Shown: one piece after another, positions 99 through 63,842 of the stretch | Numbering within the stretch: position 1 is the first letter of the stretch | How the letters are laid out: every line of letters begins with the position of its first letter | Assembly (NCBI GenBank): GCA_903813345.2 | Contig: CAIIXF020000005.1 | Location: forward strand, 9,551,375 to 9,615,374 | Direction of reading: 5' to 3' | Length of the DNA: 64,000 nt | Origin: Owenia fusiformis | Lineage: Eukaryota; Annelida; Polychaeta; Sabellida; Oweniidae | Position numbers and translations under genes: made by a program | The notes under the pieces: model-generated | Database searches by the model: none | What the model was told of the DNA's origin: nothing | Seen by the model: the letters and a program-made list of their open reading frames with translations, nothing else

Positions 99-3000
99 GT
101 GAGTTATAATAATACTTTATAGGAATGGATATGTTATGGGTATTTTAAACATTCTACTATATATACCATTAATCGAGATCTATGGGCCAATTAAGGTTAT
201 TTAGATATACATAATTTTAAGAATGAATTAAAGAAGAATTGATTCGGTAGCATAATCACATATTTTTACTGCATAATTCAATCCAAACTTATACCATTTG
301 ATATTTCAGAGCCAACATGCCCGCCTCCAACAATCCGAGGGACTGTGGATATAACAAGTACCGACACCGAACCGTACTTTCTTGGCGAGACAATCACTTG
401 GGATTGTGGGGGTGATAAATGTTCTCTACCGAGAACAATAGTTTGTTCAATGATCAATGGTGTCATGCGTTTCAATTCAACTAGGGTTGATTGCGTGGGT
501 GCTGCGTGTGCAGAAAGTAGTAAGTAATAATTTTAACCTAAATATCAATAATGTAAACAATGAAATGTCACTTTTGAAAAACACCCTTATTTCAACCATC
601 GCTCATCATTTGAATTGTTGTGAACAGCCAGTAGTTGTACCACTTAGGATTTATTCTGCTCATCTAACATACCCTAACTGTTACCCTTTGCATTCGATTA
701 ACTTCACTTATTAAAAGAGAGGTTCGTCTTCAGCAGGTAGTTTATAACTAATGCGCGCAGGGTACCTATAACTGTGCATTGAGTTTGGTCAATATTGAGT
801 CGTCTTCTGACCAACAAACCGTGTTTGTGGTCACCACTGAATCTTCTCGCCAGGAGAAAATGGTGACAATTTAGAATGCTCGTGGTCATAAATCTCTAAA
901 AGTTATCAAGCTTACCTTGTATTCACGAATGCAACTTACGCCTGTCGGAATGGAATAGTGGCAGATATTTTTCATCAAAATAGTAGGTTAATCCGGTGGC
1001 CGACAGGCGTTAGTTTCATTCGCAAATACAAGTTTAAATTTTTTGTTTACTCATATATTAGTAAGTATGTTTACAACTGAATCATATCAATCATTTTTAT
1101 TTTTAGCTTGTGACCTTCCACCAAGTATCAGTAACGGAAATTTCGTGACAACTCCACCTATTGCTCCTGGAGCGATATCAGTCGTTTTGAACACCAGGGT
1201 GGTATATTCCTGTGATAATTGTTTCACAACTAACGATCCAGTAACGTATGTCTGTCGAGAGGACTCCACTCAACAGATAGCAGAAGCCATCTACGTGCCT
1301 TCAGGAGATCCACCTACATGCAGACGTATGTATATGTATTAGTCTAGCTACACGTCACAGGGGCTTGTAGCTAAACTAGTATATTTTCTATGGTACTATG
1401 ATATGATATGATAGTATATCATATCATATCATAGTACCATCTTTGAGTCGTCTGACAAAGCCTAACTCTCTTCCATTCGGGGAAAAATAGACGCATGCAG
1501 TTGCGAATAGATATATAGGCTAACATATCATATTCTAATCTTTTTTCAACGATACAACGTGCACAGGGATGCCTTGGATACCAGCCTTTGTTTTAAGTCA
1601 TGTGGCAATCAGGAATTACACCAGCATTTAATTAAAACTCATTGTCATGACAGTATATGACCTAAGATGACCTCAGATTTTCAAAAATGTTGATACTATG
1701 TATAACATGTAATGGCTATGTACTAAATAGTACTAGATGTTCCATGATTTTTTCGATTGATATATATGAGCGTTCGAAGTACTCGATAGTACCTTTAATG
1801 AATGGCCAATTGACAAACAAAAAAACTTTTTTATACAAGAAAATTGAACATGCAGATCCTAGTTGTTTGCACCATCGACAATTCATTCAACGGACCTAAT
1901 ACTTTCATTTCAGGTGTTACATGCCCGGGTACCCCTCAGTCGCCACTAGGTGGAACAGTTTCCACAACAGAAAACACGTGTGGCACTCTCGTACAATATA
2001 GCTGTAACGATCCGTGTAGGGAACTCGTAGGGTCATCGATACGAGAGTGTCAATCGGATGGGACTTGGAGTGCTGCGGAACCAACATGCGAAAGTAAACT
2101 CTCTAAAATATTTCAGTATTCAGTCAATATGCTATTCTGTTTAAACGTGTATCTTGCTCTAAATATATCCTTTGGAAGAAATGTACAATATTTGGTCATC
2201 GTTAGTGTACTGCCTGTTGGAGCAGATACTGCAGGTCTAAATCAAGATTAAGTCTTATTTAAAAAAAAATTGTGGGTATTTACTAATTTGTATCTCCTTG
2301 TGTTGATGATTCTAGCTATGCATTAAATACAAGCTATTCACTTTTGGAACTTGTTAATTTAATCACAAAACAAAGGATGTCGGAATATTGTTCGTTAGTT
2401 TCTATCTCGTAATATAATATGAGGTTGTATTACATACCCAGCGAAGCATTTGTATTGAAGTCAATGGAGCTGAAGGTCGGCTATATATTCCTGTATAGCC
2501 GCCAAACATTTTACCATGACAATCTTATGACGTCATTTGGACGTCATGTTTCATATCTTCCTAATTTCACTCGCACACAGACACGTGGCGTCATTGATAT
2601 AACGTAGCCATGATATAAAAGTATGTAATACAACAGTTATGTCCGTATCATTGAATATATGCCTGCGGTCTGTCGTAATATAACCCTCGCAAGCTCGGGC
2701 TATATTGGTGACAGACCTCAGGCATATATTCAATGATAGGGACATAACTGCTAAATATAATGGTTGATTCCGTATATCGTGTTTATACTCAAGTGAGTAT
2801 ATGATATATTCACGAGTGCAGATTGAAGGGAACGAGTGAATATATCATATACTCACGAGAGTATAACGATATACAGAATCAACCATTATATGATCTTATT
2901 ATCCCACCCTAATCTTTAATCAATAAAAGGTTAATCTAAATTCAACAGTTGTATATCAAGTTGAGGAGTTGTATACGCTGCCTAGGAGTTGTATACGCTA

Positions 3001-6000
3001 TTCAGGAGTTGTATATCGTTCTCAAGAGTTGTATACGATGAGTGTTGGTCTTATACTGCAGTTATACAATGCTATTATACAATCATATAAAGCACTTAGG
3101 GTGGGATAATCATCAGTATTCTTTTCTGTACAAGGAAAGACATGCTCTCCACAGGCTGATAACCCATTGAATGGAAATGTATCGCCTCAAGACAGTTTCT
3201 GCGGTGCACGATTGACATATCGATGTGATCCTTGCTTTAGACTACAAGGATCACCATTACGACAATGTACACCATCAGGCTGGAGTGGTGCTGCACCGAC
3301 ATGTATACGTAAGTAACTCAAGTACTATCAAATCAATACCTGTTTACAAACAAATTCAGTGGAGAGGATTTCAAAATGGTAATGTAGATCTGAGATTCAT
3401 CTGAAATACATTCATAGTGATACGAGAATCATTTTAATCAACAGGAAAATGTTTTGTCAAATTTCAGCATTATCGTGCGATCCAATAAGCGCCCCTAACA
3501 ATGGCCAACGATTTCCTCCACAAGGGAACCAAGATTGTACTGACGAGATATCGTTCCAATGTAATAGCGGTTATCGTTTGGACGGTGCTCAAACGATAAC
3601 ATGTGTTAGCTCAAACATACCAGGATCCCGTCCTAGTTGGAATTCACCACCCCCAAGATGCATTCGTAAGTCACCAGGGTGATGCAATTTTATTTTAAAT
3701 CAATATTGTAATCAATGACGTACGATTCGTAAAATAATTATAAATGTCATATTGTTATTTTTTATCATAAGTACTCTTTATTTCATAAAAATCATAAATA
3801 AATGTAGATCTCAATCACTGCGTAATCGCCCAGAAATGGCATTTCTACTGCCGCTTTAAGTGAATTTGAAAATATAGAATTAATATATTGATACTGTTTT
3901 GTATGGAAATGTCTAGTGCCATTTAATTACTCTAAAAACGAATGAAACTTTTGGACTTGTAATGAAGTGTATTTGGAGTAATACATGAAAATGAGTGTCC
4001 TAGTCTCACGACCTTAGTTTGTGTGACCGCCCTATAATAAGTTTGTATGTTGTTTAATTAAACCCTCGTATTTACAAACAGCAACTGACTGTGAACCAAT
4101 GCCAAAAGATCCCGAATTCGGAAGTGCAGCACCAAAGGGTACTTCAATTGGTACGAGAGTGTTCTACAGGTGTGATCCGTGCTACACTCTGACGTCATCC
4201 CAAGGCCCAATTAACGTCAGAGAGTGTAAAGGTGGAGGTGTCGGTTGGGATCCCCTGGAAGAACCAACATGCAGACGTAAGGAAGTTTTATATCGTTTAT
4301 CATGATAATCTGGTTGACGTTTATAAGCACCAGAATTCAATAAACACTAAAATATATTTCTGTGTAAATTCATTACTCTCACTGGTAATATATTAATAAT
4401 AACTTACTCTGAAGTAAATGAACTTAAGTTATGAAGTGTATGTAAAATATTATGTTATGAAGTTAATAAATATTATGTTATTAAGTTGTGAAGTGAATGT
4501 AAAATATATTGTTTTTAAATGTTTAACCTTTTGTATTTTAGCTTTGGAGTGTCCCTTTGTTACTATTCCAAATGGCCAATCTACTCCTAGCGACAGAGAT
4601 TGTGGAACAATACGAAGAGTTACGTGTGATGATAATTACGTATTAGATGGCCCAGATACATTTGAGTGCAGGCAGCAAAATGGACAAGTGGGCTGGACCG
4701 AGATTCCAAAATGCCAAGGTATATAGACATAATTGTTTTTTATAACGATCATGACTGATAAGTCTGTAAGTAAAATACTAGTCTCGGTTTTGAATTCATC
4801 AGTCTACTGCACGTTACGCCTGATTTGAAAAATTTCGATATTATAAATTATTGAATGATTTGAAGTGCAATACAGGATATATTCTGCTCGAGAAATTCCG
4901 TATTGGAACGAGACGAAGTCGAGTGCCAATACAGAATGTCGAGACATTCTGTATTGGCACTCGACTTCGTCTCGTTCCAATACGGAATTTCTCGAGCAGA
5001 ATATATCCTGTATTGCACTTCAAATCATTCAATAACGTTTTTATCGTGTGATCCTCTGTATTGCTCCTGAGATTGTCCCATCCGTACAAATATTTTCTGT
5101 ATTGCGACGGAGATGATCAATGGGGACAATCTCAGTAGCAATACAGATTGGTACAGCACAAAAACTGACCAATCAGAGGGCTTCATTTTACAGATCATAC
5201 GATAAATGTACATATTGTAGATTTAAATATCCTCCTTGAATACCCATAATTTAATTTGGGTGATATTTCTATATTTTTCATGAAAAAATGATCAGCGCAG
5301 TACACTGATGAACTTCTTTCTGTAAATCGAGACTTGTCTTTTATTTCATAATTCAATTTGGGTGATATTTCTATATTTTTCATAAAAATAGCCCAGGAGA
5401 TTGTTCTCCAAACCGAGGTCCTTTTGAAAATGTATTGACAATAAATGCTAAATAATTTGCACAGAAATTCATTAACTAGTACACTATTTCCCACACAAGT
5501 TACATTATTTGACCCTACAGTTGTGCAAAATCTGACATTTATATTTACAGTGGTTTGCACTAGACTAATGGTAACTGATCCGAATGTTGAAATAGTAAGC
5601 GACTCTGCTGATCCAGTGACTGACACTTACAAACCAAACCAACGGGTGGTGTATAGATGTAGAGGATGTAACCGGTTGAGACCCGTGGGTCCATTTGGCC
5701 AGAGGATCCCAGAAAGGGTGTGCAAGACCAATGGACAATGGGATATCCCAATACCGCCTTCGTGTGAACGTATGTAATAAATCAGTAGCTAAAAGCTTTC
5801 GGCTTACATTCTTTACAGAATTTGAAATTTATGTCAGTTAATACGGTTGAAGATCGAAAACATTCCTGAATGTATGAAGAGGTAACTGAAGTCATTTAGT
5901 TATACGGCCAAAACTGCTATTTTTCAAATACTTAATTACATTAAAGCTTTGATATGTCCCGGGAATCCCCGTCCTCCAACCGGAGGAAGAGTTGACACAA

Positions 6001-9000
6001 CCAGTAATGATTGTGGTACAACCGCAACATACTCCTGTAACGACCCGTGTGATGAGCTGTCGGGTCCAGAGCAAAGGACGTGTCTTCCCAGTGGCCAATG
6101 GTCAGCCCCTGAGCCAACTTGCATAAGTAAGTACAGTACCACGTTTACTTATCAGCTTTAAAAACACAAAACGCAGAAACTCAAGACTAAAATCACATAA
6201 ATAGCATTAAAACTTGAAAGCAAAAGATGATGGACACCAACCAACCGCTTCATTAGGTGTCAATGTGAGACCAAGCAAACGTTATATTGAATACTCTTAA
6301 ACGTATTCACGGATTCGCCCTAGGCCATCTTCAATAATGCTTTCACCATAAATGGAAACAATTAAGATTGTAAAAACAATAATCTGCCAAAAATCAGTCT
6401 ACATATCACCTTCAATCATTTCAGAGAAAAGATGCTTCCCAAGACCGTTTGGCCAATTCCCTGTGCAAGTGACGCCGAACGATAACACGTGTGGTATAAC
6501 CGTGACATACTCATGTCCTCGATGTTATTCCTTGACACCCGAGTCATCAAGAACCCGATCTTGTGGTAGTAATGGACAATGGACTCCATCCTCAGTCCCT
6601 TCATGTTCAAGTAAGTATTTAACAATATAAGTCCTGGTGTTTCTAGCCCTTGTCTGGTAGATTGCTCTGTTTTTGCAATTCACCAATTATTTTCTAGATC
6701 CTTGATTTCAATGTACAGTAAGACCTGAGTGAACCCATCTCTTAAGTGAACACCTATCAACAGTGAACGTTTTTTCGGCAAAACCCCTTTCTCCAATTGA
6801 ATCCAATGTTTAAGTACAATCCTATAGTGAACACACTGTTTTTTATTATTATATCTTGGTTACCGCCATATTTGGCGAGCAATACCTCATCGGTATATGT
6901 TCAGTATTTTACGTATTTTACACCCAAAGACAGAGCCAGAAACCCCTCCTTGAAGGAGCCCTGTGTTCTTTTATGTGCACAGGTACACAGACATACAAGT
7001 ACACACCACAGCCTTTTATACGAGTCGTGAACCACTCAGTCAAACACCCAGAAATACATAACGCACAAACAAACTTGTATGAACCGAGAATCGAACCTGG
7101 GTGATAGTGGTAACCTTGACTCTGCCACTGAGCCATAGCGGGTGGACAGTGAATGCTAAATCTTGGCAAAATCAATAAATAAATTATCCTGTCTCTAGTG
7201 AACATTAAATCAGATATAAGATTTCTCGAGGATTTTCTGCAACTGCCTTATCAGAGCTGATCCGTTTATGTTATATAATACCATAATTAAAATGTCAGTT
7301 TGAGATGTTGACCTCCTTTTCTATTGAAACAGGGGTTACCTATTATAATTCTTAATAAGCTTTGTTTTTGTAAGACAAGATATGTGTCTAGCATTAATTG
7401 CTTTGAAGATAACCTGGTTAACTACAATTACCTCTATCTGAAAAATGCAGTAAAATCGCATTCTTGCTGTTGTGAATACCTACCAACAGTGGACGTTTTG
7501 TCTCGCCAAAAATGTTCGCTATACACAGGTTTTACTGTAATTTCAAATCCCATTGAATAGAGGTTATATCAAATATTTTTCGCACTTAGGTTAGGACATA
7601 TGCACCGGACACTTTTGCAATGAACAGCTATCTTCATTTCCCAGGAATAAATATGTCAAAAGCCATTGCATTGACATTAAAAGGAATTTTCTGGTGAATA
7701 TACAGTATATGTAACACATGAGTTTAATTTCGTTTCAGGAATCACATGCCCCGCACTAACATTGGAAAATGGTTTTGTCAGCGGCATGCCCGACTGTGAC
7801 ATGACCTTGGTATTCCAATGCAATTTCCCTTATCAATTAGAAGGATCTCGAACAACAAAGTGCACGGAAGATGGAACATATACGAACGACAAACCAATAT
7901 GTATCTTAGATATACGTAAGTTATTTTGCTTGGTAATACCCCTGTACTTATATTGTTATCAATCAATATCTAAAGAGAGAAGAACAAATACCAACACAAA
8001 ACAGCAAGGAAATAGCAATAACCATATACTTTTAGAGAATACAAATACTTTTTGGCTAATGTTGTAGCAAAATGTCCTTTCCGAATGCCTCCACAAAATG
8101 GGAAAATTTCTGACGATAGTTCGGATCCAGATAGTCAAAATGAGTACGATGCTGGGGACTTCGTGAGATTTGAGTAAGTTGCAGGATTTACTAGTTGTTT
8201 ACAACTACCAAACAGTTTTATTTCGATCGTTGCGATTCTTCAGGGTTTCTCATAAAAAATGTTTGGTCAATATGATTTAACTAGAACGACTTCGATTTTG
8301 AACCAACATGTTCTTTTATCATTACCTTTTCAAATAGGACATTTGAAATGATCCATAATATAAAATTATTGAAGCTATTGAAGGTTTCAAATGTTGGTAT
8401 CCATAAAAAGATATAAATCCCCTGTGGTATTTATTATTTTTCTATAGGTGTGACCCTTGTTATACCATTGCCAAAATGCCTGGCTCGCCAACTCCAATGG
8501 CTGATTCTGCGTTGTGCAAAGATGACGGTTCATGGACAAATCCCGTCCCTAGATGTGAACGTAAGTAAACAACAATATAAACCACAATATCCAATAAAAA
8601 ACAGGCACTTTTGAGTTCGTCAACCTTTTTGGGCATCCCAGGAAAAGTAAGAATTTATGAGGAAATTGAAGATTTGAGCAAGCCTTGGAGTAAATAAGCA
8701 AAATTATAATTACATTTTATAACACCATGAAATATAGTTATGAGAAACCAAAAGAGGTCATGAGACAAAATTCATGTAAAGGAAAAATGCATTGGTCCAC
8801 ATAACCTGTGCAACAAGATTGAAGGTATTTTCCAGGTCTACGCTGTACATCGATTCCTGCTCCACCCAACGGCCGAAGAAATCCACCTTCCGGAAACAAT
8901 GACTGCAATGATTTCGTGGATTATAGTTGCAATCCTGGATTTGAGGAACAAGGAACTAGAGTAAGGCGAATCCAATGTATCCAAGTGGGAAATGGAGCAG

Positions 9001-40140: not shown

Positions 40141-40785
40141 GTATCAGTAAATTGCAAATTTGTCTTCATGTATCAATCCGAGTGGCATATCGTCACGAGA
40201 AGGTGCTGTTTGAAATTATTGTAAGGTATACGATTCAAAAGTAATGCTGTAAGGAATAGTACAATTCACCCAATTTCTTGGGGATATAGCGCATACTAAG
40301 ATTAGCCATAGGATATTAGAGCTATTAGACCCACTTTCAGTGACTTAAGCATGCATGTTTGTCTAAAAAAACGTCCACATTTTTATGTAATGTTCATGAA
40401 AATACGTAGATTTCTGAAATCGTTCCTGAAATGGGGAAAAAAAAATCTCCATGGATTTCTGAATACAATGATATTAGTTATGCCTCGAATTATATTACCA
40501 GATTTACATATTATTCAGTCTGTCAGAGAAACACATCACCAGTTCTGTTTTTCTTGATTTTCTTAGACTCAGTTCAAATCTGCCTTATCGGTCTCAATAC
40601 ACTCACAATGTGAATGCTTCAGTTCTTATCAGAACTATAAAGACCAACAGTACAAGCACCATACCTAACATGTCTCTCTGACTCAATGTATAAGTTGTCA
40701 ATCTGAAACTATTGTTCCAGACATGACCAATATCTTTGTAGAATTATTGCTTTGAATATTATCCCGAAGGCTTCATATGGTAACT

Positions 40786-44886: not shown

Positions 44887-45999
44887 GATCGTCGTCCATG
44901 AAACACAATGGTCCAAACAGTGATCAAAATGAGATCCAAGTGGTCGTTTATTATCGGAAACAGAAGTAGCACTTTTCACAATGAAATGAAATTACATAAA
45001 CACAAGATATATAGCCGACATTGTCAGAAAAATCTTTATTTTATAAAACAATCTATTAAGGGTGCAGCAACAGATTATTATTGGATTGACTTATGTTGAA
45101 AATGTTCAAAGGGCGTCCTTTTGATTAATTAAGGTTAAGACTATTTGAATGATTAATCCACATCTGATCTAGATATCCTTTGCAAATACTGCTAATTACT
45201 ATTGTTCCCAAAAATGTTTTCGTATTTTGCATGGAGTGACATGTGTATATGTTGAAGGAATGAATGCAATTGGTTGTTTATAACTCGTAGCTCCATTAAA
45301 AATCAATTAACATTTAGGTTTTAATTCTTGAGATAATTATAAAAAGATATCTAAGTTGCGGATTCTATTGTTTGGTATAATTTATTGTAATGATTTATAA
45401 ATCGAATTAAGCAAACGTAGCGTTCTTAGTGATACTACGGCAGAGAAAGGATCCAGTGGGTATGATGCCAAATACTCCGTGAGTAATTAAGAAAATCATT
45501 TTTTAAATAGTTATCAACTAATCCTTTTGCGATGTGTACATTTCAAACAGTCTACTTATAATGTTTAACAACAAAAGGGTAATTTCATCATCTCCTCTGT
45601 AAAATATGTACACAGGCTGTATGGGGTTGCAATGGAATTATAGAGTGGAGTCGACCGTGCGTTATCACTTTTAAGGCCATACTGTGATGGAACTCTTCAA
45701 ACTCTACGAAAATGGATCTGTTCCGGTAACAAAATGTCGCAACCTCGAATGTACGATTTTTCTTTTCCCATGATTTCAAGAAACTCCAGAATTTGCACGA
45801 CCCTTTTGGCACAAACGTGTGTCAGCATGCATCATCAATTCGTGAAATTATGGAAACAGAAAAATTGTATCTCTGAGCCCTCGACATTTGTTGTTACAAG
45901 TTTTCGTAACCAGATTGAAGAATTCCACCACTGGCGAAATAAGCAATGCGGCAAGCCCAGCATATGCGTCTGCTCCAGTATGAAACCGTGGGAGGGATG
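44887..45999. other. Intergenic upstream of gene B, nothing firm
   Basis: No credible coding region. A 100-codon open frame at 45734-46036 lacks domain text and overlaps the promoter region of gene B. Confidence 0.45.
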
Positions 46000-46008
46000 T
46001 GGCGACTT

Positions 46009-46014
46009 TATAAA
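46009..46014 (+). promoter_or_regulatory. TATA box of gene B
   Basis: TATAAA in the context cgactttataaatcgcc, 58 bases before the ATG at 46072. A start site near 46040 would leave a 5' UTR of about 30 bases. The transcription start site is inferred. Confidence 0.55.
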
Positions 46015-46071
46015 TCGCCGCAGCAAATTTGACTGAGGCATTTTATCTTATTGTTCAGACAACCTGCCTGT

Positions 46072-46174
46072 ATGGGCAAGTGCTCGTATTTGGGTCCGTT
46101 GTTCATCCTCTGGATATGTGTACTGCCAACTACATTTGCGACATTTGGGGATCGTCATCGACTTCGTGCACGTG
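46072..46174 (+). CDS. Gene B exon 1: signal peptide
   Basis: ATG at 46072 opens MGKCSYLGPLFILWICVLPT, a short basic start and a hydrophobic core, with likely cleavage after TFA. The mature start is rich in Arg/His (DRHRLRAR). It ends CGT G|gtatgt in phase 1. Confidence 0.8.
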
Positions 46175-52100: not shown

Positions 52101-55100
52101 GATGAGCAGTGGATCTGGCAGTTCAGGTGGAAACAGTACATCTTATGATTCGAGCAAACAATCCGACTCAAGTGCAAGTTCTATTGAAAGCAAAGAGGAT
52201 GTAGAAGATATAAACCGGTAAGACCAAGCTGCAGCAGAACAAGTCACCTCATCTTGTTGTTTTAAAATTATTAAAAATACAAGGCCTAACGCACATTTGT
52301 TATGTTGGAAAATTAAAACACTCGCTTCGAAAGTAAGTTTTTCAATTCAATATTTTTCAGTATTCGCAGGACCTTTTCTGGGAGTAGCTCTGACAGCCAA
52401 TCGAATGTCAGCTCTGGCAGTCAATCGAAGATGAGCTCTGGCAGCCAATCAAAGGTCAGCTCAGGCAGCCAATCAAAGGACAGCTCTGGCAGCCAATCGA
52501 AGGTCAGCTCTGGCAGCGAATCAAAGGTCAGCTCTGGCAGCCAATCGAAGGTCAGCTCTGGCAGCCAATCGAGGGTCAGCTCTGGCAGCCAATCGAAGGT
52601 CAGCTCTGGGAGCAAATCCAGTGGAGACACTTCTGAATATACATACAGTCATGGTTCTGATACATCTGACGAGGATAATGACTATAATGGCGATAACGAT
52701 TATCCCGATAGGCCAAGAAGGTGTTATCAAAAAGAAGTTGAGAAACAGAGCTGCTTGGAAGAATGTACAGGTACCACTGATATATAAGAAATAAATTATT
52801 GGTCACACGTTGTTACTTCCTACAACGTTACGTGTTCTTCATTTAATAAACAGGCATTTTATATATCATTAAAATAAATTATTACCCGATTTCATTATTG
52901 TCATCATGGAATAATTAAACGATTGTGTTACAGACCCATCTGGATTCGGGGACTGGAGGGTTATTTCTCCCTGCAGTGCATCGTGTGGAGGAGGGAAGCA
53001 AAGACTGGAACGTAGCTGCGTCAACCCAACAGATTCACACGATTCATGTGTAGTAACCGAAGAAAAAATAACGGATTGCAATACACAAAGATGCATGGAT
53101 GATGGTAATAACTCATTGCCCCCGTCATATATTGTGTTTTTAATGTAAACAAGAATATGCAAGTAAAGGTGAAAAGATTAACAAAGAAACAATAGAGAGA
53201 TTTCGCTAATGAAACTCTTAGTTACGTTTATGCGTATAGCTAGCTATATGTTATAACCATAACTGAACTGAAATTTCGCATTTCGCAACAAAGAATACTT
53301 ATACATATAGATTATGATATTTAAAGAATAACTTTATACGATAAATTCCTCGTTTATATTCTCGATTTGATATGGTAACATGACTATGCAAAAAACGCTG
53401 TGATTCCTGACCAATGATTATGTCTTAACAAGATAACAATTTCCTCATGTTTAGACCACGTTTTGTAAGCAGTAGGGAGTTTAAGCTTGCAATGTTTTTC
53501 ACAACCTAAACGTGAACGGAAAATATTTAAGTGATGCATTTGTTTGGGCGATTGGTCATGCGTATAGGTTGACGTTTCGATTTTATATGCAAGCTTAAAC
53601 TCACTAATGGCTACTTATTCGACAAATGGTGACGTAGTACACACACATTACGAATCATAAACGCAAGGGTTTGATAAACACCCAGTGAGTGAGTTAAGGA
53701 ATATTTCGAATGTCTGATTAATTCCCAGTAGCTTGAAATGCTCTACCCCGTGCTCTATATGTTTTTTAGGTTCAGTATATGGGTTGCTTGGTAAACAAAA
53801 TAAGTCGAAATTTCAATTAAATTTACAAAAGAACATATGTTTTCATGAAAATGGTTAGATTGGTCAAATTGAACAGACAGATAAGCTTCAGTAAGACATC
53901 GTTAAATTTTGTTAAATTCAGATTAAATCTATCATTCAATTTGCCCTATCTTTTCTTAATTATTTAGCCTGCTCCGAGCCAGAAAATCCAGCAGCAATCC
54001 CACTTTTATCGGACAGCGATACAGCTCCTTACTTCCCCGGTGAGAAAGTGTTCTGGGAATGTGGGGAGCCAGATTGTCTTGAAGTAAAAGTTGCAGTTTG
54101 TGTCGAAGATACCTTGAAATTCAACTCATCGATTACATGCCCTTCTGGAGGGTGTGCAATTCCACGTAAGTTAACAATTCATAATTTACGATCTTTAATT
54201 GATAAGCCGATTATCGTGTGTAATGTCCTATCTAATCACCTTACTGGCTAATGGGGATTTGGACAAGTTGTGTCGAACGTCCAAATGTTTAAGCTGGTCG
54301 ACTGTAAACGTCGTAACCTCGTGACACTAAATTAAAACTCGCTCTCCATCAGTTCTTTAACTACCACTTGATATTGAGGTCGATCTTTATTCAAGGTACT
54401 ATGATATGAAGAAAACAGTGGTTAATAATTATAAAATCATAGTCATTTTGTCGGATGATTCGAATTAATCGTTCGGTGTTGTATTAATTTCGATTTTTTG
54501 TTTGTTTTATGTTAGATTGTGATGAGCCACTTCCAATAATAAATGGCACTTTTGAGAAACAGTTCCCAGGCCCTGTTGAAGTAGGAACGTATGTCGAATA
54601 TTCATGTAATGAATGTTATCAAATCGCTGAACCCATTCGTACGTGTATTGAGGATGGAATCACAGGAGATATTCGATATGAACCTAAGCAGCTACCAATA
54701 TGTTCTCGTAAGTCAACACGAAAATGAAATTATTTGTTCCAATGAGACATAATGTACAATAAGTTGAAGTAAACATACACTATTAGCCCACAGAGCTTTT
54801 GAACTTTAGCACTATCATGATTATGTGTCTGTTCCAGGTGTCTCGTGTCAATTCATTCCAAAAGATCCTATCGGTGGTACTGTAAGCACATATAGCAACG
54901 ACTGCCTTAGTGTTGCGACATATACCTGCACAGATCCATGCTCTGAGCTAGTAGGGGCAGAAACAAGAACATGCACTCCAAGCGGAGCATGGGACCCTCC
55001 AAATGAGCCAACATGTTTAAGTACGCGTTACTCTTAAATATATGTTTTTAAAGAATAAAGGGATGGTCCATCAAAATGAAGTAGAATATGTGTAAATGAT

Positions 55101-58100
55101 AACTGAATGCTTACATACAACCTACACACAACCTACATAACCTAATATTGTTCTAATCCTGATTTATTTTATTTTATTAAATGTACAAATTTTTGTTGAT
55201 AGGACGAGAATGTAATCCAAAAGCTGTTGAACCAGATAATGGAGCAATCATTGGAGAAAGTTCTTGTGGAAGTTCTGTCACCTACTCTTGTGATCCATGT
55301 TATAGACTTAAGGGAACCAGTGAAAGAGTTTGCAGTGAATCAGGCTGGGAAAGTCCTGCACCGACCTGTGAAGGTTGGTATTCAATTGTCATATGTGCAG
55401 TTATATAACAATATATTACAACAATGCTAGAGACATTTCATTCAGAATAATCAGTTAACGCCAAAACAATTTTATACTTTCAGTTACCAAATGTGAAACA
55501 ATTCTTGCACCTGCAAATGGAAAAAGATATCCAATGACTGGAAATGAGAACTGTGGTGATGTTATAACATTTGAATGCGATGCTGGTTATACACGCAAGG
55601 GGCCAATAAATACCGTGTGCAGTGTTGGAGAAACTCAAGGATCAGCGATATGGAGCAATGAACCACCAACCTGCGAAAGTAAGTATACTGAGTAGATAAT
55701 TAAATGGACTCTAGAGCATGAGACAAATATATAGCATCTTATTAAACTGTACAAACCAATTTAAACAATATGACAGTATATACAGCCTAAGCGCAAGTGC
55801 CAAGGGGAAGGACCAAAGGTTGTAATGGAACCTTGCAAGAAAAAGTAAACTCTATGTGTATAATTGTACAAATCGATACACTTTTAGGAATTCACAGGCT
55901 TCTTTATTTTTTGTTTCTTTTTTCATTTCAGAAAATTATTGTGAACCGATGCCTGAAGATCCATCAAGCGGAACTGCAGAGCCAAAAACCAACACGATCA
56001 ACACAACTGTTACATATACATGTGATGCATGTTTCACATTATCAGGGTCTCCACAAAGAACATGTATAGCAAATCCTCCAGAAGATCCACAATGGTCGCC
56101 TTTGTTGGAACCAACTTGCACAAGTAACTTACGTCTTGAGTATACTAATAATACTTTGTACCTTGCGTTTGTTGTTATCAGCAGCTAGTCTTGGTGATCA
56201 GTTGTAATGTTGACTGTCGTCATGCATGTTTCTCCTAATTGGTTGTTTATTTGATCATTACTCGATATTCCAAAGTTGTTTTTTAAATTCCCGAAAATGT
56301 CTCAACAATTCTATCAGACTCCGTCTTAACATTAAGCATAATGATTAAGCATCAATGATACTATGACTGCCATATTCTTACCAGTCATTCCAGTGTTGTT
56401 CGTTTACCATTACCATATTTAAACTCTCGATTTCAGTAGTATTTGATTACTACAGTTTAACCAGTTAAACATTATTGTATCTTTTAGTGTTGTCATGTTC
56501 ACAAATGACAGTTGATAATGGAAACGTCCAAGGAACAAATGATTGTGGGGGATTGGCACAAGTAACATGTGACGCTGGATATTATATTTATGGCCAGTCA
56601 ACAATTCAATGCACATTGCAAGACGATGGAACTGTCGAATGGGTACCTAACCCACCCAGCTGTAAAGGTAATGCTTCCATGGGTTAAGCAGTAGAAAATG
56701 TTGTATTACTCATGCTCTCACAAAATCAAATGGTGGTCTTATGTCTTTGGCTCAATTCTTCGACTTTCAATGTGGTATGAACATTTGATTTACATGCTGA
56801 TTTATCGTCCTGTTACTATGTGATGTATCAATCTGGAAGCTTTTTCAACCAATCAGAAGTTTCCAAATATTTGTCTCATAACCAGCAGTGACGGTAATGG
56901 AAGGGTAGGGAATGTCAATGGATATGGTGTACTATCAACGCTGTACATGGACCTTAAGATAATATAAAATCCTCCATTTCATTATTTAGCAAGGTGTCAA
57001 GATATGATACCAGCAGATCCGAATGTAAGGAAAAACGTGGATGAGTCTTCACCAATAGACCCTGATACCGATACATATGGGGCCAATGATAGACTGGTGT
57101 TTAGATGTGCAGCATGCTTTATGATCATGGCAGATAGCGTTGGAGTCCGTGACAATGATCGCTTGTGTTTACCCACGGGTGAATGGGATAACCCAACCCC
57201 TCCTCAGTGCGAAGGTAAGTTATTTATATTATGAATAAAGGCTTTAATATACGCCGCATCGTGTACGTTATACAATGCGGCAATAATGTATAACAACGAA
57301 AAAACTATTGTATTAATCGGATGTGATGTGTGATAGTCATCTTGCCATAACAATTGAAGATCTGGATATGCATGATGTAATATATAATGTTAAAATATTT
57401 CAGCTATTACGTGCTCTGTGCTTGAAGCACCTAGTGGGGGAGCCATAAGCTCACAAGACATAACATGTGGAACTACCATTTCATACTCATGTACAGACCC
57501 ATGTCTTTTACTATCTGGTTCACCCGAGCGAACGTGTCAGCAAGATGGATCTTGGTCGGGATCAGAACCAGTTTGTATAAGTAAGTGAGATAACAATAGA
57601 GAGGTTCCGCATAATGTGATATTGCTAAAACCGCATCTTGTTTGAATTGAACTGCAATTTAACCGCATAAATGTAATGATTGCCTTACAGATTTTGATAC
57701 GTTGAGCTAAAAACGTTGTGCGAAACCTATCTATGAATAAAATAATTACAGATCACACGAGCTGCATCAATCACTCCTTGAGAAATATTAATTATAAAAT
57801 TAAGTCCATGTAAATTATTGGTAAAGTGAACATTTTTGTCTTTTGCAGGTAGAACTTGTGACAGTGAACCCAACCCACCAATACCTGGTACCATATCAAC
57901 AAATGACAACGTGTGTGGTACTGAAGTTACTTACTCTTGTCCTAGATGTTATGAGTTGAGACCAGACACGAATTCGATTCGCACATGTCAACCTGATGGG
58001 CAATGGACCCCAGCAATCGAACCAACTTGTGAAAGTAAGAAGATGTGTATGCTGAATGTCCAAACTATCATTCTTTTTTCAAAAAATAAGACAAACTTCA

Positions 58101-61100
58101 ATTCATAATAAAATGCATTTTCGACGCCTTTATGACACAATAATTCATTTTGTATTTTCTTAGTTAAGGCCTGCCAGCCTCTATCCTTACACAATGGTAT
58201 CGTAAATGGTGGGCGCAACTGCGATGCAACAGTAACATTTGAATGTATCGAACCATACAAATTAGAAGGTTCGTCAAGTGCAACATGCCTTCCTGACAAG
58301 ACATGGAGTTCGCCTGTTCCTGAATGTGTACCACGTAAGTATTTGTTTATAATATAGGTTTTTAAATTTGAGTAGGCTATTTTAAAATGACAAAACTGAG
58401 AGTCTGGATTATAAAACATAACATTACATGATGTTAATGCAAAATCTGCTTTCAGAGAGATGTCAGAAAAGGATGGACCCAGAGAACGGTGAAATAGATA
58501 TAGATAGAAGTGCCATACCTGATGAGAATGATACATATACTGTTGGGGATGTTGTATTCTATAGGTAACTGTTACTACAGTAATAATCTTTTAAATCTTG
58601 TGATTTTTTAATAACGAATTATCTCGTAATCTTGAAATTAATGGGCGATATAATGAATGTGCTTTCATAGAAATTTTTTGTAAAGAATGCTGAATCATAT
58701 TCCTAAAAGAATAGCAATTACTTTAGGTGTGACACATGCTATGCGATTGCGGATGGTGAGCTTGGGCCCATGTCAGATCATGCTATTTGTCTCAGTGATG
58801 GAACTTGGAGCGAACTAATTCCAATATGTCAGCGTAAGTCATATACTATTCAAATGGCGTTAGAATTTTATCAATATATCATTCAATATTTGTATCAATG
58901 ATGTTGTATATGTAACTATGATATCAAGAAATCAACAAACAAAAATACAAAAACGAAATTAGATATATCACTATAGCCTAAAATCTTGTCTTACATATAT
59001 TCATTTTATTTAAGTGCTGAGCTGTGCGCCGATGTCAGCTCCGATAAATGGTACAATGACACCATCGGATGGAAACAATAAGTGTAACGATGAACCATTG
59101 GAATTCAACTGTGATCCTGGTTTTGCTGCAGTGGGACCCGGTGTGACTCCGATACGTTGTATTCCAGTTGAAGGAGGCGCTGCTTGGGATAATACCCCTA
59201 TTTCATGTGAACGTATGTATCAAAATTAAAGCAGTATCTACCAATGGTTGATTTTAACACGATTTATAGTAGGCCTACTCATAAGTTTACTTCATAATAT
59301 AATGTATCTGGGAGATTAGTGCAATTTTTTCTAATTTACTATAGATTTTAGAAGATTACCTATCAAAGACATTTACACATCTTCCTTTATAGCAAGATGC
59401 AGTGAGCCTATGCCACCATTGAATGGTTCAATAGTTTCACCTACAAATGCGAATGGCGAATATGCTCCTGGAGATAAAATCGAGTTTGCTTGTGATACCT
59501 GCTTCAGAATAAGCGAAAATGCAGAAGGTGTAAGAGATGCTGATATTGTTTGCAAACAAAATGGAGAATGGGATGGACCAGAACCTGCGTGTGAATGTAA
59601 GATATTGAGACACTCAACAACAAACGATAAGTATAGTATACAAAGCAAGTTTTGAACCTCAAGCAAGTTATAAGTCATCCGAATCAATGAAAAACGTCAA
59701 TGTGTAACACATGAACCTGAGAACAAGATTTCCTTTTGATGTTTTAGTTGAAGTTAAAAATAATTGTTGATGTTTTAGTGATGCAATGTGTGTCTCCGAT
59801 GCTCGGAGAAGGAGTTGAAGTAGTCGATGGCAGTAATGACTGTGGATCATCAATGAGGTTTGAGTGTAAACAAGGGTATATTAAATCAGGTGGAGACGAT
59901 GAAATGATGTGTCTTTCCGAGGGTACAACTTTACAGTGGAATGGCAGTCCACTGACTTGCAAAAGTAAGCTGAAAATTAACATTAGTCAGTATGGGTGTT
60001 CCCTGACTGCACACATAAATTCATGTTAAAATAAATTGGACGATGTATTTAAAAACTTTGTATATCAAAATATTTTTAAAAACCTATTGCATTAGCCTTT
60101 CTTGCATTATACAGAAAAATGCCCGTATCGAATGCCACCAGCAAATGGCATAATAGACCCAAGTAGTGATGATCCAATTGAGTCAGAATACATTCCCGGG
60201 GATGTTGTCCGCTTCAGGTAAATACTAGTTTTCGACAGAAAATCCCAAATATCCACAGTGGATGGACGAAGCTGCTATATAAACTAATAAAACTAAAACA
60301 AACCAAATCAGAATTATGTAGCTCTAATTTACCCAGAAATTATTTTCAAATGTAACGCGCAGACATTCGATTTAAATAAATCTTAGTCAATGAATTTTAT
60401 GTTTATACGATTCTTTGCCTACGAACTTAATTAACATGTTTTATGTTATAGATGTAACGAATGCTATACAATCGGTTCTGATGAATCGGGTCTTATGTCA
60501 GACTCTGCCGTTTGCTTGAACAATGGCGATTGGAGTGATCCGGTGCCAACTTGTGAACGTAAGTTTTTCGTATAAAAATAAGAATATAATTGTATTTTGT
60601 GAAAAGTCGAAATCTACAAAACAACACAGAATATAAGTAAAATACTCGAGTACCACTTCTCCAAAGTATACGTATATGATCTGCCATAAAGAACTATATC
60701 AATGTACTGTTTCGCTACATTTTAAGGTATGAGATGTATACCCATGTTGGCACCAGCAAATGGTGGCCGATCACCAGAATCAGGAAACAACCTTTGCAAT
60801 GATCCACCTATTCATATCAGTTGTGATGAAGGCTATGGAGAAGAAGGGTCTGGTATCGACCAAATACAATGTGTAGATATTGATGGTGATGCTGATTGGA
60901 ATGGCGAACCGTTGAGCTGTGGACGTATGTTACTATTTAAGAAGTAAAGAAAGTTAATATTTATGCTGAATATATTATGACATGCTATTGTATGGAGATA
61001 TTTGTGTTTTAGCAAGGTGTAATAAACGCATGGGGCCTGATAATGGTGCGATCGATGAAGTTAATAGCGATCAACCAGATGAAGAAAACCAATACAGGCC

Positions 61101-63842
61101 GGGTGAGATTGTGAAATATGTTTGTGACAATTGCTTTGGAATAATTCCAAATGCAGATGGAATCCAAGACGATGATACAATGTGTACAGCATCTGGGTGG
61201 GATGGACAAGTTCCAAAATGTCAACGTAAGACCAAACTTAAATTAATATATTATAATGCCAAATGTTTCAGAGAGATCTACACAATTATATAATAAAAAT
61301 GATAGGTATGCTTACAATTAAAACATGGCTACTTATTCAACGAGGTGGTGTTAAAATACCAAACAATTTGAAATTGTGATTACGACTGATCATTCTTTAC
61401 TCAAAAATGTAGGGATATGAAACAAATTATATTTATTTCAAATGAAGGACTAACATGCGCCGCGCCTGAACTGAATGAAGGTGTCGAACGTATAGGGACC
61501 AACAATAATTGCGGAGCAACTGCAAGTTTCACTTGTAAAGAAGGCTATGTCCCAGCTGATGCTACCCTTACGTGTGTGGATGATGGTTCTGGGTCTCCCG
61601 TCTGGAGTGGTACCCCATTGACTTGCAAAAGTATGTACCAATCATTTATTTTGATTTATGCAAGGCGAAAATATGTAACATCAACTCAACACAACTAACG
61701 TTTTGTCGTTCTCATATAATCATTATGTTTTGCTTTCACTTGATCAACAGAAAAATGCCCTTTCCGGATGCCACCGGAAAATGGTGCAATAGATGAAGAC
61801 AGAAGTTCAAACCCAGATCCGGATGATAACAAGTACAATCCAGGCGATAGTGTGTATTATAGGTATTTATTGTTTAAATACATTGTTAGTTTTTCAGAGC
61901 GAATGGGAGAATCCCAACATATTTTCTCGGCCTGGATAATGTATTTAACAATTTTCGTCTTCATATAGAACATTTCTTTCACATTTTGCTATAACAATGT
62001 ATTTCAATGAACAATATAGGTGCAACACCTGCTATAAACTTGATACGATGCTGTATGGATCAGAAACAGAGTTTGCTGTTTGTGGAGAAGATGGCAATTG
62101 GAACAGACCGGTACCAACCTGCCAAAGTATGTTGTCTGCTTCATGCACATTATTCAAATGTATAACACTAAACTTATCATGTACGCGATGATATGATTTC
62201 TTATGTGTGACATTTGGAGCGATTATTTAAGACAAGTCTAATATTCTAGTTTTGATGTGCATGTCCATGCCGCCACCGGAGTTTGGGGGAAGAAATCCAC
62301 CCGATGGAAACAACAACTGTAATGATGATCCTGTCACTTTCTATTGTGATGCCGGTTATGGCGAAGAAGGACCAGGGGTGAGCAATATTAGCTGCATCCA
62401 AGTGGAAGATGGAGTGGCAGACTGGGATAATGAACCTATGACATGTGGACGTTAGTTCGACTTTTTTAGAATTTAGGTCAAATCTACTCAAAGATTTCCC
62501 CGTTTAACTAATTGGTGTCATAGAACATCACTATTCATTTAATTCATTATAATCGTCAAAGTTACATATTTTCTAGTACTTTGGCTGAGATCAATTATAA
62601 TCTTTCTTGTCCAACATGGCGAATCTACATATATATTAAGCTAATCTTATAATTATATATTATGGACATACACACCATTGCTTCTTAAATTATTTTCAGC
62701 ACGGTGTAGTGAGCGAATGCCTCCATTACATGGATCTGAACATGAAGCTTCTAGCGATGATCCGGTTAATAACCAATATAAACCAGGCCAAAAGGTTACA
62801 TATGAATGTGATATATGCTACAGAATAAAAGCAAATGAGCTTGGTGAAATGGACAATGATACACTATGCACAGAATCTGGTTGGGATGCTGATGTTCCTA
62901 ATTGTGAACGTGAGTGAAGAACATGTACCACAGATATATAATGCCGTCTATTAAATATGACACAACGGGTTCTGCCTGATGAAATATGATGGGCAGGGTT
63001 GATGTGAAATTCAGAAGTACAAATAAAAACTATGAAAACAATATAATTTGCCTAATATATTCATTTAGAAGGTTTTTCATAACACAATTATTCCTAACGT
63101 ATAGTGTTTGCTCATAAAAATAATATATATATTATCTGTTTCACAACAAAATTGTAAAATGTTTGATGTTATTTGAACAGTGATGCAATGCGAGAGCCCG
63201 CTTATGGGAGAGGGAGCCATGTTGATAGGGGACAACAACAGCTGTGGACAAACCCTTAGCTTTGAATGCAAGCCTGGCTACATTCAATCTGATGGAGAAC
63301 AAAGCATTACATGCCAATCCGAGGGCACCACAGTCTCATGGAGTGGCGTTCCAATGACCTGCCGGCGTAAGTAATTCTTTTACCACGTAACAAATGCTAC
63401 TAAGAGACAAATATGGAATCACGATTGTTCATTTTACAGCTGAATTTTATACTTGTAGTGCTGGAGTGTTTAGAAATGATGCCCGACAAACCACTTAACG
63501 GAGATATTGACAATACACCAGGTGCCACTGATCCTAAACCATATACGCCAGGTACATATTCTTCTTAAAGGTATATTATTCCTTGTTTATAAGTTCCCCA
63601 TTCACACCCCTCTCTGGTTACTTAATTATGTAATGACCCTCGATAGCAAGTCGCTACTAGTCTCAGCTGTAGTGGTTAGCCCTTATGGCTCATATAACGA
63701 ATATTCTTTTGTGCAGGTGACCGAATCAGCTTCATTTGCGATACATGCTATCAGATTGGACTGAATGAGAATGAAGAACGAGATGCAGATATTGTTTGTG
63801 GTATCAATGAACTCTGGGATGGTTCCATGCCAGTTTGTGAAT
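46072..63842 (+). CDS. Gene B: secreted Ly6-like/TSP1/Ser-rich/CCP protein, tandem paralogue of gene A (3' end missing)
   Basis: 42 exons chain in frame for about 8.1 kb of coding sequence (about 2,700 residues) and run off the window. Order: signal peptide, Ly6/uPAR-like domain, six-Cys exon, acidic exon, four TSP1 repeats (three with long Ser-rich inserts), a divergent six-Cys CCP, then 23 CCP domains up to an X domain whose partner lies outside. From 53968 on, domain types, exon phases and split exons follow gene A from 310 on, so the two genes arose by tandem duplication. The start ATG is chosen because it opens a signal peptide and follows a TATA box. No other start is compatible. The product should be extracellular; vWD, EGF and lectin parts like those of gene A would be expected past the window end. 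Function unknown. Confidence 0.8.
46377..46969 (+). CDS. Gene B exons 2-3: Ly6/uPAR-like (three-finger) domain
   Basis: Exons 46377-46498 and 46786-46969 (phases 1-0, 0-1). The text opens KCFSCQNTTDPTAC and closes DCSGCCYGPLCN, the CC...xCN ending of LU domains. It holds 11 Cys against the usual ten, one possibly unpaired. N-glycosylation motifs NTT and NRT are present. The short first exon and mid-domain intron are typical of Ly6 genes. No GPI signal follows, since the protein continues. Confidence 0.7.
47307..47486 (+). CDS. Gene B exon 4: six-Cys segment of unknown family
   Basis: Phase 1-1 exon. The acceptor at attag|TC is required to keep frame; a closer cag gives a stop. Text: IGSCFKRKGEC, TQCIPIGSYC, IPCSTC. 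It might be a second, degenerate LU domain or part of the first; I do not recognise it. Confidence 0.6.
47610..47703 (+). CDS. Gene B exon 5: acidic linker
   Basis: Phase 1-2 exon, very acidic (SSEEIEDEEVIIEEEEF), ending WKYRGKKL. It leads into the Lys/Arg/Ser-rich exon 6. The donor is gtacgt. Confidence 0.65.
47897..48840. repeat. 27-bp tandem satellite array in an intron, about 35 copies
   Basis: Unit about ATTATATATTACTGCACTAA plus CGTTGTG, 27 bp. Variants (gattatgta against gattatata; tgcacc, tgcact, ttcact; gttgtg against gtagtg) form higher-order repeats: a 54-bp alternation in the first half, and an 81/108-bp order around 48490-48795. Because 27 is a multiple of three and the unit lacks stops, long frames are open on both strands; they are not genes. 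The array ends directly at the acceptor of exon 48843. Confidence 0.95.
48843..49805 (+). CDS. Gene B exons 6-8: basic Ser-rich region and TSP1 repeat 1 with insert 1
   Basis: Exons 48843-49072, 49229-49307 and 49417-49805 (phases 2-1, 1-2, 2-1). First comes a Lys/Arg/Ser/Gly-rich stretch (KGKRKSKSKKSWGSRSRS). Then TSP1: CTHWSTWSDC, NMLTCKQKRHRTCPSEC. The domain does not close until DECFTTETQTRDCQVEC at the end of exon 8. Between lie about 120 residues rich in Ser, Asp and Arg, with basic sites RRRRG at 49417 and TRRKRT near 49545. Closing text matches the end of TSP1 repeat 4, so I read the Ser-rich part as an insert inside the fold. Confidence 0.75.
50022..51186 (+). CDS. Gene B exons 9-10: TSP1 repeat 2 with Ser-rich insert 2
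   Basis: Exon 50022-50124 gives LWTDWGDCDSISCKAKRYRY and RPCD; exon 50318-51186 (290 codons) is almost all insert. It starts with an Asp/Glu run (EYDDEDCEPEDDDEDESSEE), has a 20-residue repeat three times (SESKDSQHSSSESDKSSG), a furin-type RRKKR site (50616-50630), then SGSGSSKSGS-type repeats, and closes with LCWDKEIDTKDCENC. Many S-x-E/S-x-D motifs are potential secretory-kinase phosphosites. The flanking intron holds a run of 15 G at 50201-50215. Confidence 0.75.
51388..52770 (+). CDS. Gene B exons 11-13: TSP1 repeat 3 with Ser-rich insert 3
   Basis: Exons 51388-51526 (CEEWSEWSLC, SSENCFRYRWRRCPVKC), 51894-52217 (a MSSESGSK octapeptide about seven times) and 52361-52770 (an SSGSQSKV-type octapeptide about nine times, then an acidic Tyr/Asp patch and CYQKEVEKQSCLEEC). 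The RIRR site at the exon 12/13 junction is a furin consensus. Phases are 1-2, 2-2, 2-1. Exon 51894 needs AG|C from exon 11 to keep frame, which it has. Confidence 0.75.
52934..53104 (+). CDS. Gene B exon 14: intact TSP1 repeat 4
   Basis: Phase 1-1 exon with canonical TSP1 text: GFGDWRVISPCSASCGGGKQ, RSCVNP, then VTEEKITDCNTQRC. Six Cys. It is the only TSP1 of gene B with no insert, and shows where the inserts of repeats 1-3 fall: between the third and fourth or later Cys and the closing TxxxxxDCxxxxC segment. Confidence 0.85.
53477..53602. repeat. Inverted repeat with 15-bp perfect arms
   Basis: gagtttaagcttgca at 53477-53491 and its exact complement at 53588-53602, in the intron 53105-53967. 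It is probably a small MITE. Confidence 0.6.
53968..54165 (+). CDS. Gene B exon 15: divergent six-Cys CCP-like domain
   Basis: Counterpart of gene A 310-519: ACSEPENPAAIP, APYFPGEKVFWEC, then CVEDTLKFNSSITCPSGGC. The closing Trp and PxC are replaced by CPSGGC. Phase 1-1. Confidence 0.7.
54516..55678 (+). CDS. Gene B CCP block 1: X-Y'-Y-Z
   Basis: Exons 54516-54707 (X, YSCNECYQI), 54838-55020 (Y', NDC, YTCTDPCSELVG), 55203-55373 (Y, SSCG, YSCDPCYRLKG), 55484-55678 (Z, ENCG, FECDAGY). The donor of exon 55203 is gttggt, weak but the only one that keeps frame. Same order as gene A 1107-3665. Confidence 0.8.
55785..55865. repeat. Dispersed repeat fragment shared with 38850-38965
   Basis: Contains AAGTGCCAAGGGGAA, GGACCAAA, GGAACCTTGCAAG and GTAAACTCTATGTGTA in the same order as the copy at 38850. 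Unclassified interspersed element. Confidence 0.4.
55932..56667 (+). CDS. Gene B CCP block 2: X-Z
   Basis: Exons 55932-56123 (X, CEPMPEDPSSGTA, YTCDACFTLSG) and 56488-56667 (Z, NDCGG, VTCDAGYYIYG). The X text EPMPxDPxxGxA is shared with gene A 4082-4276, confirming the pairing of the two arrays. The intron before it carries a repeat fragment at 55785-55865. Confidence 0.8.
56990..58334 (+). CDS. Gene B CCP block 3: X-Y'-Y-Z
   Basis: Exons 56990-57214 (X, FRCAACFMI; DADP-like DPNV text shared with gene A 5551), 57404-57580 (Y', ITCG, YSCTDPCLLL), 57849-58034 (Y, NVCG, YSCPRCYEL), 58164-58334 (Z, RNC, FECIEPYKLEGSS). All are phase 1-1. An antisense open frame across this region is a shadow. 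Confidence 0.8.
58456..59212 (+). CDS. Gene B CCP block 4: split X-Z1 (superunit copy 1)
   Basis: Split X: 58456-58564 (RCQKRMDPENGE ... VVFYR) and 58727-58833 (CDTCYAIADGELGPMSD). Z1: 59015-59212 (DGNNKCNDEPLEFNCDPGF). The phase 2 split before Cys2 matches gene A 8068/8448. Confidence 0.8.
59393..59964 (+). CDS. Gene B CCP block 5: X-Z2 (superunit copy 1)
   Basis: Exons 59393-59596 (X, CSEPMPPLNGS, FACDTCFRI) and 59779-59964 (Z2, LGEGVEVVDGSNDCG, FECKQGYIKSGGDD). Z2 matches gene A 11757-11945 and the partial first exon of gene A. Confidence 0.8.
60115..60924 (+). CDS. Gene B CCP block 6: split X-Z1 (superunit copy 2)
   Basis: Split X: 60115-60217 (KCPYRMPPANG ... VVRFR) and 60452-60558 (CNECYTIGSDESGLMSD). 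Z1: 60727-60924 (SGNNLCNDPPIHISCDEGY). The phases are the same as copy 1. Confidence 0.8.
61013..61630 (+). CDS. Gene B CCP block 7: X-Z2 (superunit copy 2)
   Basis: Exons 61013-61225 (X, CNKRMGPDNGA, YVCDNCFGI) and 61448-61630 (Z2, LNEGVERIGTNNNCG, FTCKEGY, SGTPLTC). The acceptor of the second exon (caaatgaag) has a poor pyrimidine tract but is the only frame-keeping choice seen. Confidence 0.75.
61751..62450 (+). CDS. Gene B CCP block 8: split X-Z1 (superunit copy 3)
   Basis: Split X: 61751-61862 ([15 protein letters not shown] ... VYYR) and 62020-62126 (CNTCYKLDTMLYGSE). Z1: 62250-62450 (DGNNNCNDDPVTFYCDAGY). The donor after Z1 is gttagt, a weak variant. Confidence 0.8.
62700..63366 (+). 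CDS. Gene B CCP block 9: X-Z2 (superunit copy 3)
   Basis: Exons 62700-62909 (X, CSERMPPLHGS, YECDICYRI) and 63181-63366 (Z2, MGEGAMLIGDNNSCG, FECKPGY). Confidence 0.8.
63459..63842 (+). CDS. Gene B CCP block 10: split X (partner beyond window)
   Basis: Exons 63459-63551 (ECLEMMPDKPLNGD ... YTPG) and 63717-63842 (DRISFICDTCYQI ... PVCE), split in phase 1 as in gene A 12401/12809. The donor gtaaat at 63843 shows that the gene goes on. The last 158 bases are intron with nothing notable. Confidence 0.8.

Follow-up and report, generated by a model that had tools for sequence, protein, structure and literature searches.

Neighbor-matched extra cysteines in tandem CCP arrays of Owenia fusiformis suggest disulfide-stapled domain segments

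Two CCP arrays and their gene context

The window, by which we mean the whole 64,000-nucleotide stretch analyzed here (C5:9551375-9615374, in a genome of 498 Mb and 525 contigs), holds two tandem arrays of CCP domains, A and B, with every domain given below lying on the plus strand (+). CCPs were detected with a profile built from the window's seed CCPs and run across all six frames, and the 40 kb on either side were analyzed beside the window, giving a cluster of 144 kb. Each domain was typed by Cys position relative to Cys2, with X having a late extra Cys only, Z an early one only, and Y both (Y′ where the late Cys lies at +4). All four canonical Cys are present in 117/117 typed domains of the cluster. 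At the curated PF00084 cut-off of 20.7 bits, one Y (38.4) and one Z (34.4) pass among three CCPs scanned, and the third, A26, gives no PF00084 match; the remaining CCPs were matched solely to the profile built from this window.

The window opens inside a Z that runs from -82 to 94, so that positions 1-94 of the window are its end; this Z belongs to an upstream X-Z-X-Z. Array A starts with A01 (318-509), a divergent six-Cys CCP-like domain that is neither X, Y, nor Z. The typed domains then run from A02 (X, 1109-1321), A03 (Y′, 1922-2089), A04 (Y, 3143-3304), and A05 (Z, 3476-3661) through A06 (X, 4090-4272) and A07 (Z, 4550-4714) to A08 (X, 5556-5765), A09 (Y′, 5955-6122), A10 (Y, 6433-6606), and A11 (Z, 7747-7902). 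A12 (X, 8073-8556, split by an intron before Cys2) pairs with A13 (Z, 8844-9026), and A14 (X, 10818-11030) with A15 (Z, 11765-11941). Each of the next X-to-Z runs has a single Y: A16 (X, intron-split, 12409-12930), A17 (Y, 13554-13721), and A18 (Z, 13904-14074); A19 (X, 14223-14420), A20 (Y, 14576-14743), and A21 (Z, 15194-15367); A22 (X, 15574-15780), A23 (Y, 16045-16203), and A24 (Z, 16727-16897). The array closes with A25 (X, 17664-17864) and A26 (Z, 18188-18394, early Cys at Cys2-16), A27 (X, 18549-18773) and A28 (Z, 19301-19480), and A29 (X, 19823-20029) and A30 (Z, 22734-22895), the final CCP found ahead of the VWD domain.

Array B likewise begins with a divergent six-Cys CCP-like domain, B01 (53970-54155), which resembles A01. 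There follow B02 (X, 54518-54703), B03 (Y′, 54846-55016), B04 (Y, 55211-55369), and B05 (Z, 55492-55674), then B06 (X, 55940-56119) and B07 (Z, 56496-56663), then B08 (X, 56995-57210), B09 (Y′, 57412-57576), B10 (Y, 57857-58030), and B11 (Z, 58172-58327). From there on, X and Z alternate: B12 (X, intron-split, 58461-58829), B13 (Z, early -9, 59023-59208), B14 (X, 59398-59592), B15 (Z, 59787-59960), B16 (X, intron-split, 60120-60554), B17 (Z, early -9, 60735-60920), B18 (X, 61018-61221), B19 (Z, 61456-61626), B20 (X, intron-split, 61756-62122), B21 (Z, early -9, 62258-62446), B22 (X, 62705-62905), B23 (Z, 63189-63362), and B24 (X, intron-split, 63467-63838), whose partner Z lies at 64069 in the right flank. 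The block order common to A and B starts over at 79615, after the domains at 54518-79465; as no other domain is seen between, array B seems to continue as a super-repeat.

In the window profile search, each CCP occupies one exon, or two with an intron before Cys2, and most CCP exons have a phase-1 donor 4 bases past the last Cys. Such a split affects 6/21 X domains in the window. Throughout the 144-kb cluster it is seen in X (17/48) and in none of the Y and Z domains (0/69), and at a related locus (C5:9.44 Mb) the split domains include some Z too. The halves of the 17 split X in the cluster were joined by hand over the intron; in those at 85363 and 87762 the residue preceding Cys2 differs from the DNA, with the type unchanged.

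Exons 3′ of A30 (23616-30196, +) match VWD, C8, TIL, EGF, and SUEL lectin domains and are probably the 3′ part of gene A, and a TSP1 repeat (52915-53145, +) precedes B01 and is probably N-terminal to array B, so that both sets of exons would share transcripts with the CCP arrays. Such domain mixtures occur in secreted matrix, mucus, and adhesive proteins. Ser-rich open frames lie 5′ of TSP1-like repeats at window positions 50265-51203 and at -5707 in the left flank, which suggests the same N-terminal layout ahead of both arrays. Many small Cys-rich exons are seen 3′ of the SUEL match (32083-39922), one of the two scanned matching DUF7107 just below the cut-off, and a long tandem repeat with a plus-strand reading of IIYYCTNVV (47850-48839) is probably satellite-like and no gene.

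A junction rule in the cluster

Array A reads XYYZXZXYYZXZXZXYZXYZXYZXZXZXZ (11 X, 7 Y, 11 Z) and array B, up to the window end, reads XYYZXZXYYZXZXZXZXZXZXZX (10 X, 4 Y, 9 Z), exactly the counts given in the first-pass annotation, which had been made from the sequence of the window. With the flanks included, the 117 domains (48 X, 21 Y, 48 Z) parse fully into 48 X-(Y)0-2-Z blocks, of which 33 are XZ, 9 XYZ, and 6 XYYZ, and the X, Y, Z order proposed in that annotation holds for all of them. Wherever a domain of the cluster has a late Cys, the domain after it has an early one (69/69 junctions), and wherever the late Cys is missing, the following domain lacks the early one (45/45), the rule being obeyed at 114/114 junctions in stretches of 4, 29, and 84 domains. 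It also holds out of sample: all 65 of the CCPs starting outside the window fit (65/65), one of which, the Z at -82 to 94, ends inside it. No domain lacks both extra Cys (0/117), and no early or late Cys lacks a partner in the adjoining domain (0 cases).

When domain order was shuffled (20,000 times each), array A reached at most 25/28 junctions versus 28 observed and array B with the right flank at most 62/83 versus 83 observed; for the short array upstream, with its 4 domains, 3/3 junctions are also attained by shuffling, and order shuffling as such ignores block duplication. The Cys count is even in 47/48 blocks. The annotation had called every X-to-Z block even, and this stands but for one flank block, which is odd because the X at 75185 carries a sixth Cys adjoining Cys3.

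Among the 69 bearers of an early Cys, it lies at Cys2-8 in 56, at -9 in 11 Z, and at -16 in 2 Z; among the 69 bearers of a late Cys, it lies at Cys2+3 in 63 and at +4 in 6 Y. The originally noted spacings of -8 and +3 are thus those of most bearers (56/69 and 63/69), and the -9 and -16 positions in Z have to be added. Where a type lacks the extra Cys, the late position in Z is mostly Gly (40/48) and the early position in X mostly Pro (30/48). By eye, a late spacing of +3 or +4 is not accompanied by a matching shift of the early Cys in the next domain. With the +3 spacing, Cys2 and the late Cys form a CXXC in 63/69 late-bearing domains, and X and Y could for that reason be taken as redox-active thiol-exchange modules. 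We consider this very unlikely, since CXXC is broken by the +4 spacing of 6/69 domains and by some spacings of +4 or +5 at other loci, and since such a motif gives no reason to expect an early Cys in the following domain.

The claim that every complete CCP can be typed applies to the 117 domains but not to A01 and B01, which we left out of the X/Y/Z counts together with their junctions. Each lies directly 5′ of an X and has six Cys, with the extras at Cys2+5 and Cys4+5, within exon ends that are inferred; A01 gives only a weak HMM match (E 4.3). They need no outside partner and might close on themselves at the C-terminal pole. With these small corrections, the X-(Y)n-Z Cys typing of arrays A and B is confirmed.

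Descent of the domain types

On trees, X, Y, and Z largely cluster by type, with 6 type changes among 101 domains, and the order of the first 15 typed domains is the same in A and B. Three X domains, A06, B06, and the corresponding one at 81620, sit with Y on the tree, with modest support. Their early position is occupied by Ile, Ile, and Val, respectively, and the preceding Z lacks a late Cys; judged from the sequences, this pattern would look like coordinated loss of Cys. Judged from the trees, X seemed likely to have arisen several times independently, a reading that we dropped because the AU test does not reject a single origin of all X (p-AU of 0.15); the core X together with the A06/B06/81620 trio as one origin gives a p-AU of 0.40.

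Because type goes largely with descent, and because the AU test allows a single origin of X, the 114 junctions amount to far fewer than 114 independent observations, and block duplication accounts for much of the domain order. One could go further and regard the order as a mere record of duplicated X-Z, X-Y-Z, and X-Y-Y-Z blocks, with the Cys having no role at the joint, a reading that agrees with the clustering of types, the common first 15 domains, and the AU result. We judge it improbable, given that not one of 117 copies has lost one Cys alone (0/117) despite drift to about 30% identity and that the rule still holds with differing Y-run lengths at other loci. Identity outside the Cys has a median of 27 to 36% within a type across the cluster, and at such distances duplication would seem to leave the absence of unpartnered Cys among the 117 domains unexplained. 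That both Cys are kept within a type is true by definition; it was set aside as evidence, and the absence of unmatched Cys was used in its place.

The rule at other loci of the genome

Related loci were located by a protein search with one X and one Y, and C5, C11, C12, C1, and C3 are among the contigs found. Six stretches were taken from them, with intron-split halves joined before counting, and the rule is obeyed at 90/94 junctions. The single loci give 38/38 at C5:9.44 Mb (C5c; 39 domains from 41 matches), 26/26 at C5:29.60 Mb (C5b; 27 domains), 18/18 at C11 (28.34 Mb), 4/4 at C12, 3/3 at C1 (4 domains from 5 matches), and 1/5 at C3:9.27 Mb. In the raw typing, before split halves were joined by eye, C5c showed five "0," two "?," and a false Y, and C1 showed one "?" and a false Y. 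First halves are missing or partly seen for the X at 4827, 12204, and 19068 in C5c, 12220 in C5b, 6383, 7186, and 8214 in C11, and 955 in C1, and in those X an early Cys is excluded only across the part seen.

All 4 failures are lone Z domains with an early Cys at C3:9.27 Mb, where no X or Y was found before them; these are perhaps copies of a gene's end. In the same region (C3:9273000-9281000), four Z alternate with an eight-Cys segment of another kind. At C11:28.34 Mb, nine consecutive Y are followed by a Z. The limit of two Y per block, which had been read from the window and stands across the cluster, is for this reason only local, and the rods first described as short would be so within the window, with far longer Y chains at other loci. 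A late Cys at +4 in some X of C5:9.44 Mb indicates that the shifted late Cys is not confined to Y. C12:4357000-4363800 contains five near-identical Y exons; four recur at intervals of about 1.07 kb, and the DNA separating the exons yielded no further CCP.

Ordinary CCP arrays of the same genome were used for comparison. In two of these, 0/59 CCPs found have a Cys at the early or late position. One is intronless, with 47 CCPs found in 10 kb (C1:21969500-21979499) and an open frame of 2,766 amino acids, and the other has 12 CCPs found. Extra Cys do occur in two domains of the intronless array, placed near Cys1.

Linkers at junctions with and without matched extra cysteines

A linker of 4 residues is present at 69/69 junctions with matched Cys (here called stapled) and at 18/45 unstapled junctions of the cluster, where Z-X linkers range from 3 to 10 residues. 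At the other loci, the corresponding values are 49/52 for stapled junctions, with C5b computed over 25/27 domains and its last two Y taken from typing, and 10/18 for the unstapled junctions measured, one of which rests on a wrong domain start. All these lengths depend on splice sites inferred by rule, save in the intronless ordinary array, which has 4-residue linkers at 46/46 measured junctions. Because the ordinary array shares it, the 4-residue linker is no proof of a staple, and we dropped it as a staple signature. That Z-X linkers wander in length while stapled joints keep the usual one fits with the former being joints and proves nothing.

Position of the extra cysteines in the CCP fold

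In NMR studies of factor H modules 10-11 and 11-12 (PMC4068365) and 12-13 (PMC2806952), the published sections describe the D-E loop or strand E of one module as contacting the pre-strand-D loop of the next. P661, R662, F663, and L664 of CCP11 touch Y710, Y711, and G712 of CCP12, and T602 and V604 of CCP10 touch H651 of CCP11, according to the cited part of PMC4068365, while T724 of CCP12 is placed within H-bonding distance of H773 in CCP13 in that of PMC2806952; H651 is named as the equivalent of H773 in the same literature. On the aligned chains, P661 to L664 correspond to CysII+2 to +5 of CCP11, T724 and I726 to CysII+5 and +7 of CCP12, Y710, Y711, and G712 to CysII-9 to -7 of CCP12, and H773 and H651 to CysII-8 of CCP13 and CCP11, respectively. 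As these offsets coincide with those of the late (+3, +4) and early (-8, -9) Cys, the extra Cys would occupy a known module-module contact, with the qualification that the three bimodules are strongly tilted and have linkers of 6 or 8 residues, unlike the 4-residue linkers here. For a parasite CCP, the cited section describes one disulfide, the first, as fastening the N-terminal end and the other as fastening the C-terminal end (PMC9163516).

A Y domain, A20, was folded by AlphaFold2 with 45 window domains (pLDDT of 95.5), and the model has the CCP fold (best VIA-align Z of 8.4 and rmsd of 1.3 over 54 residues, to beta-2-glycoprotein I). Its two extra Cys lie on either side of one strand (23-28), C20 before and C31 after it. 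A single-sequence AlphaFold2 model of a Y domain was poor (pLDDT of 66.4) and was set aside. Pairing of the two extra Cys inside Y, as a third disulfide, would agree with the even Cys count of Y and would leave the extras of X and Z free. It seems to us the least probable of the readings weighed here, as the two Cys flank an extended strand in the model, sit at poles that contact different neighbors in the factor H interfaces described, and, if paired so, would leave each of the 48 X and 48 Z with a free thiol. Such free thiols would be odd for a secreted protein.

The pairing first proposed, in which the late Cys of a domain bonds the early Cys of the next, is supported, as far as sequence and published contacts allow, by the 114/114 cluster junctions, the 90/94 elsewhere, the 47/48 even blocks, and the factor H contacts. 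An arrangement of the extra Cys on opposite faces, lacking contact, would run contrary to the bimodule structures as described in the cited sections. Lone X and lone Z are odd in Cys, and the proteins probably carry VWD, C8, and TIL domains as well, which accompany disulfide-linked multimers in other proteins. The late Cys of one molecule could accordingly bond the early Cys of another and build an inter-chain network. This too is unlikely, if somewhat less so than the other alternatives, given that a network requires neither strict neighbor matching nor balance within blocks and that in the factor H modules described the two positions are opposed inside a single chain as it is.

A proposed staple between neighboring domains

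We regard it as probable that the CCP arrays form stapled segments in very large, probably secreted modular proteins, by way of late-early inter-domain disulfides. Going by published CCP structures, the extra Cys of X and the late one of Y would lie in the D-E loop at the C-terminal pole, and the early Cys of Y and Z at the N-terminal pole, where it would meet the late Cys over the module junction. The late thiol and the early thiol of the next domain would then form one inter-domain disulfide per junction, with X opening a rod, each Y lengthening it, and Z terminating it. Z-X junctions, having no staple, would act as joints, and the product would be a covalently stiffened, jointed rod. With somewhat less confidence, we propose that the domain types act as a three-letter code (open, relay, close) for the number of CCPs covalently fused per rigid segment, from 2 (X-Z) to at least 10 (the nine Y and the Z at C11:28.34 Mb). 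The least certain step is the role of the arrays, for which a matrix, mucus, tube, or adhesive structural material can be suggested on weak support.

Relation to known systems

The CCP arrays of factor H, CR1, and CR2 are likewise tandem modules of the same fold, and factor H also has the interface between D-E loop and the next module's pre-strand-D loop, with linkers of 3 to 8 residues. Unlike the proposed staple, the interfaces of these proteins are non-covalent in the descriptions cited, and the late position of CR1 and CR2 is never Cys among the alignment rows listed. Selectin SCRs, too, are CCPs with more than four Cys, but there the extra pair belongs to a single domain and forms an internal third disulfide; of the 117 domains here, 48 X and 48 Z have one of the early and late Cys alone. 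A disulfide between plasminogen kringle 2 and kringle 3 joins neighboring modules, as a single case of one inter-module bond in another fold with no repeated code. The two-domain thyropin IrThy, in the published section cited (PMC10889554), likewise has neighboring modules of one chain joined by disulfides, yet these are two Tg1 modules, bonded via a Cys-Lys-Cys linker. In PAPP-A, one SCR has three disulfides, and the text cited mentions no bond between neighboring SCRs. No earlier report of a CCP-CCP disulfide staple is found among the open-license papers listed. CCP arrays themselves are already known; a neighbor-matched code of extra Cys in such arrays would be new.

The usual picture of CCP chains is one of four-Cys beads, with bending governed by linkers and side chains. 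If the staple code is true, rod length and joints would become predictable from sequence, and the code would provide a simple sequence screen in other animals as well as a design rule for stiff protein rods.
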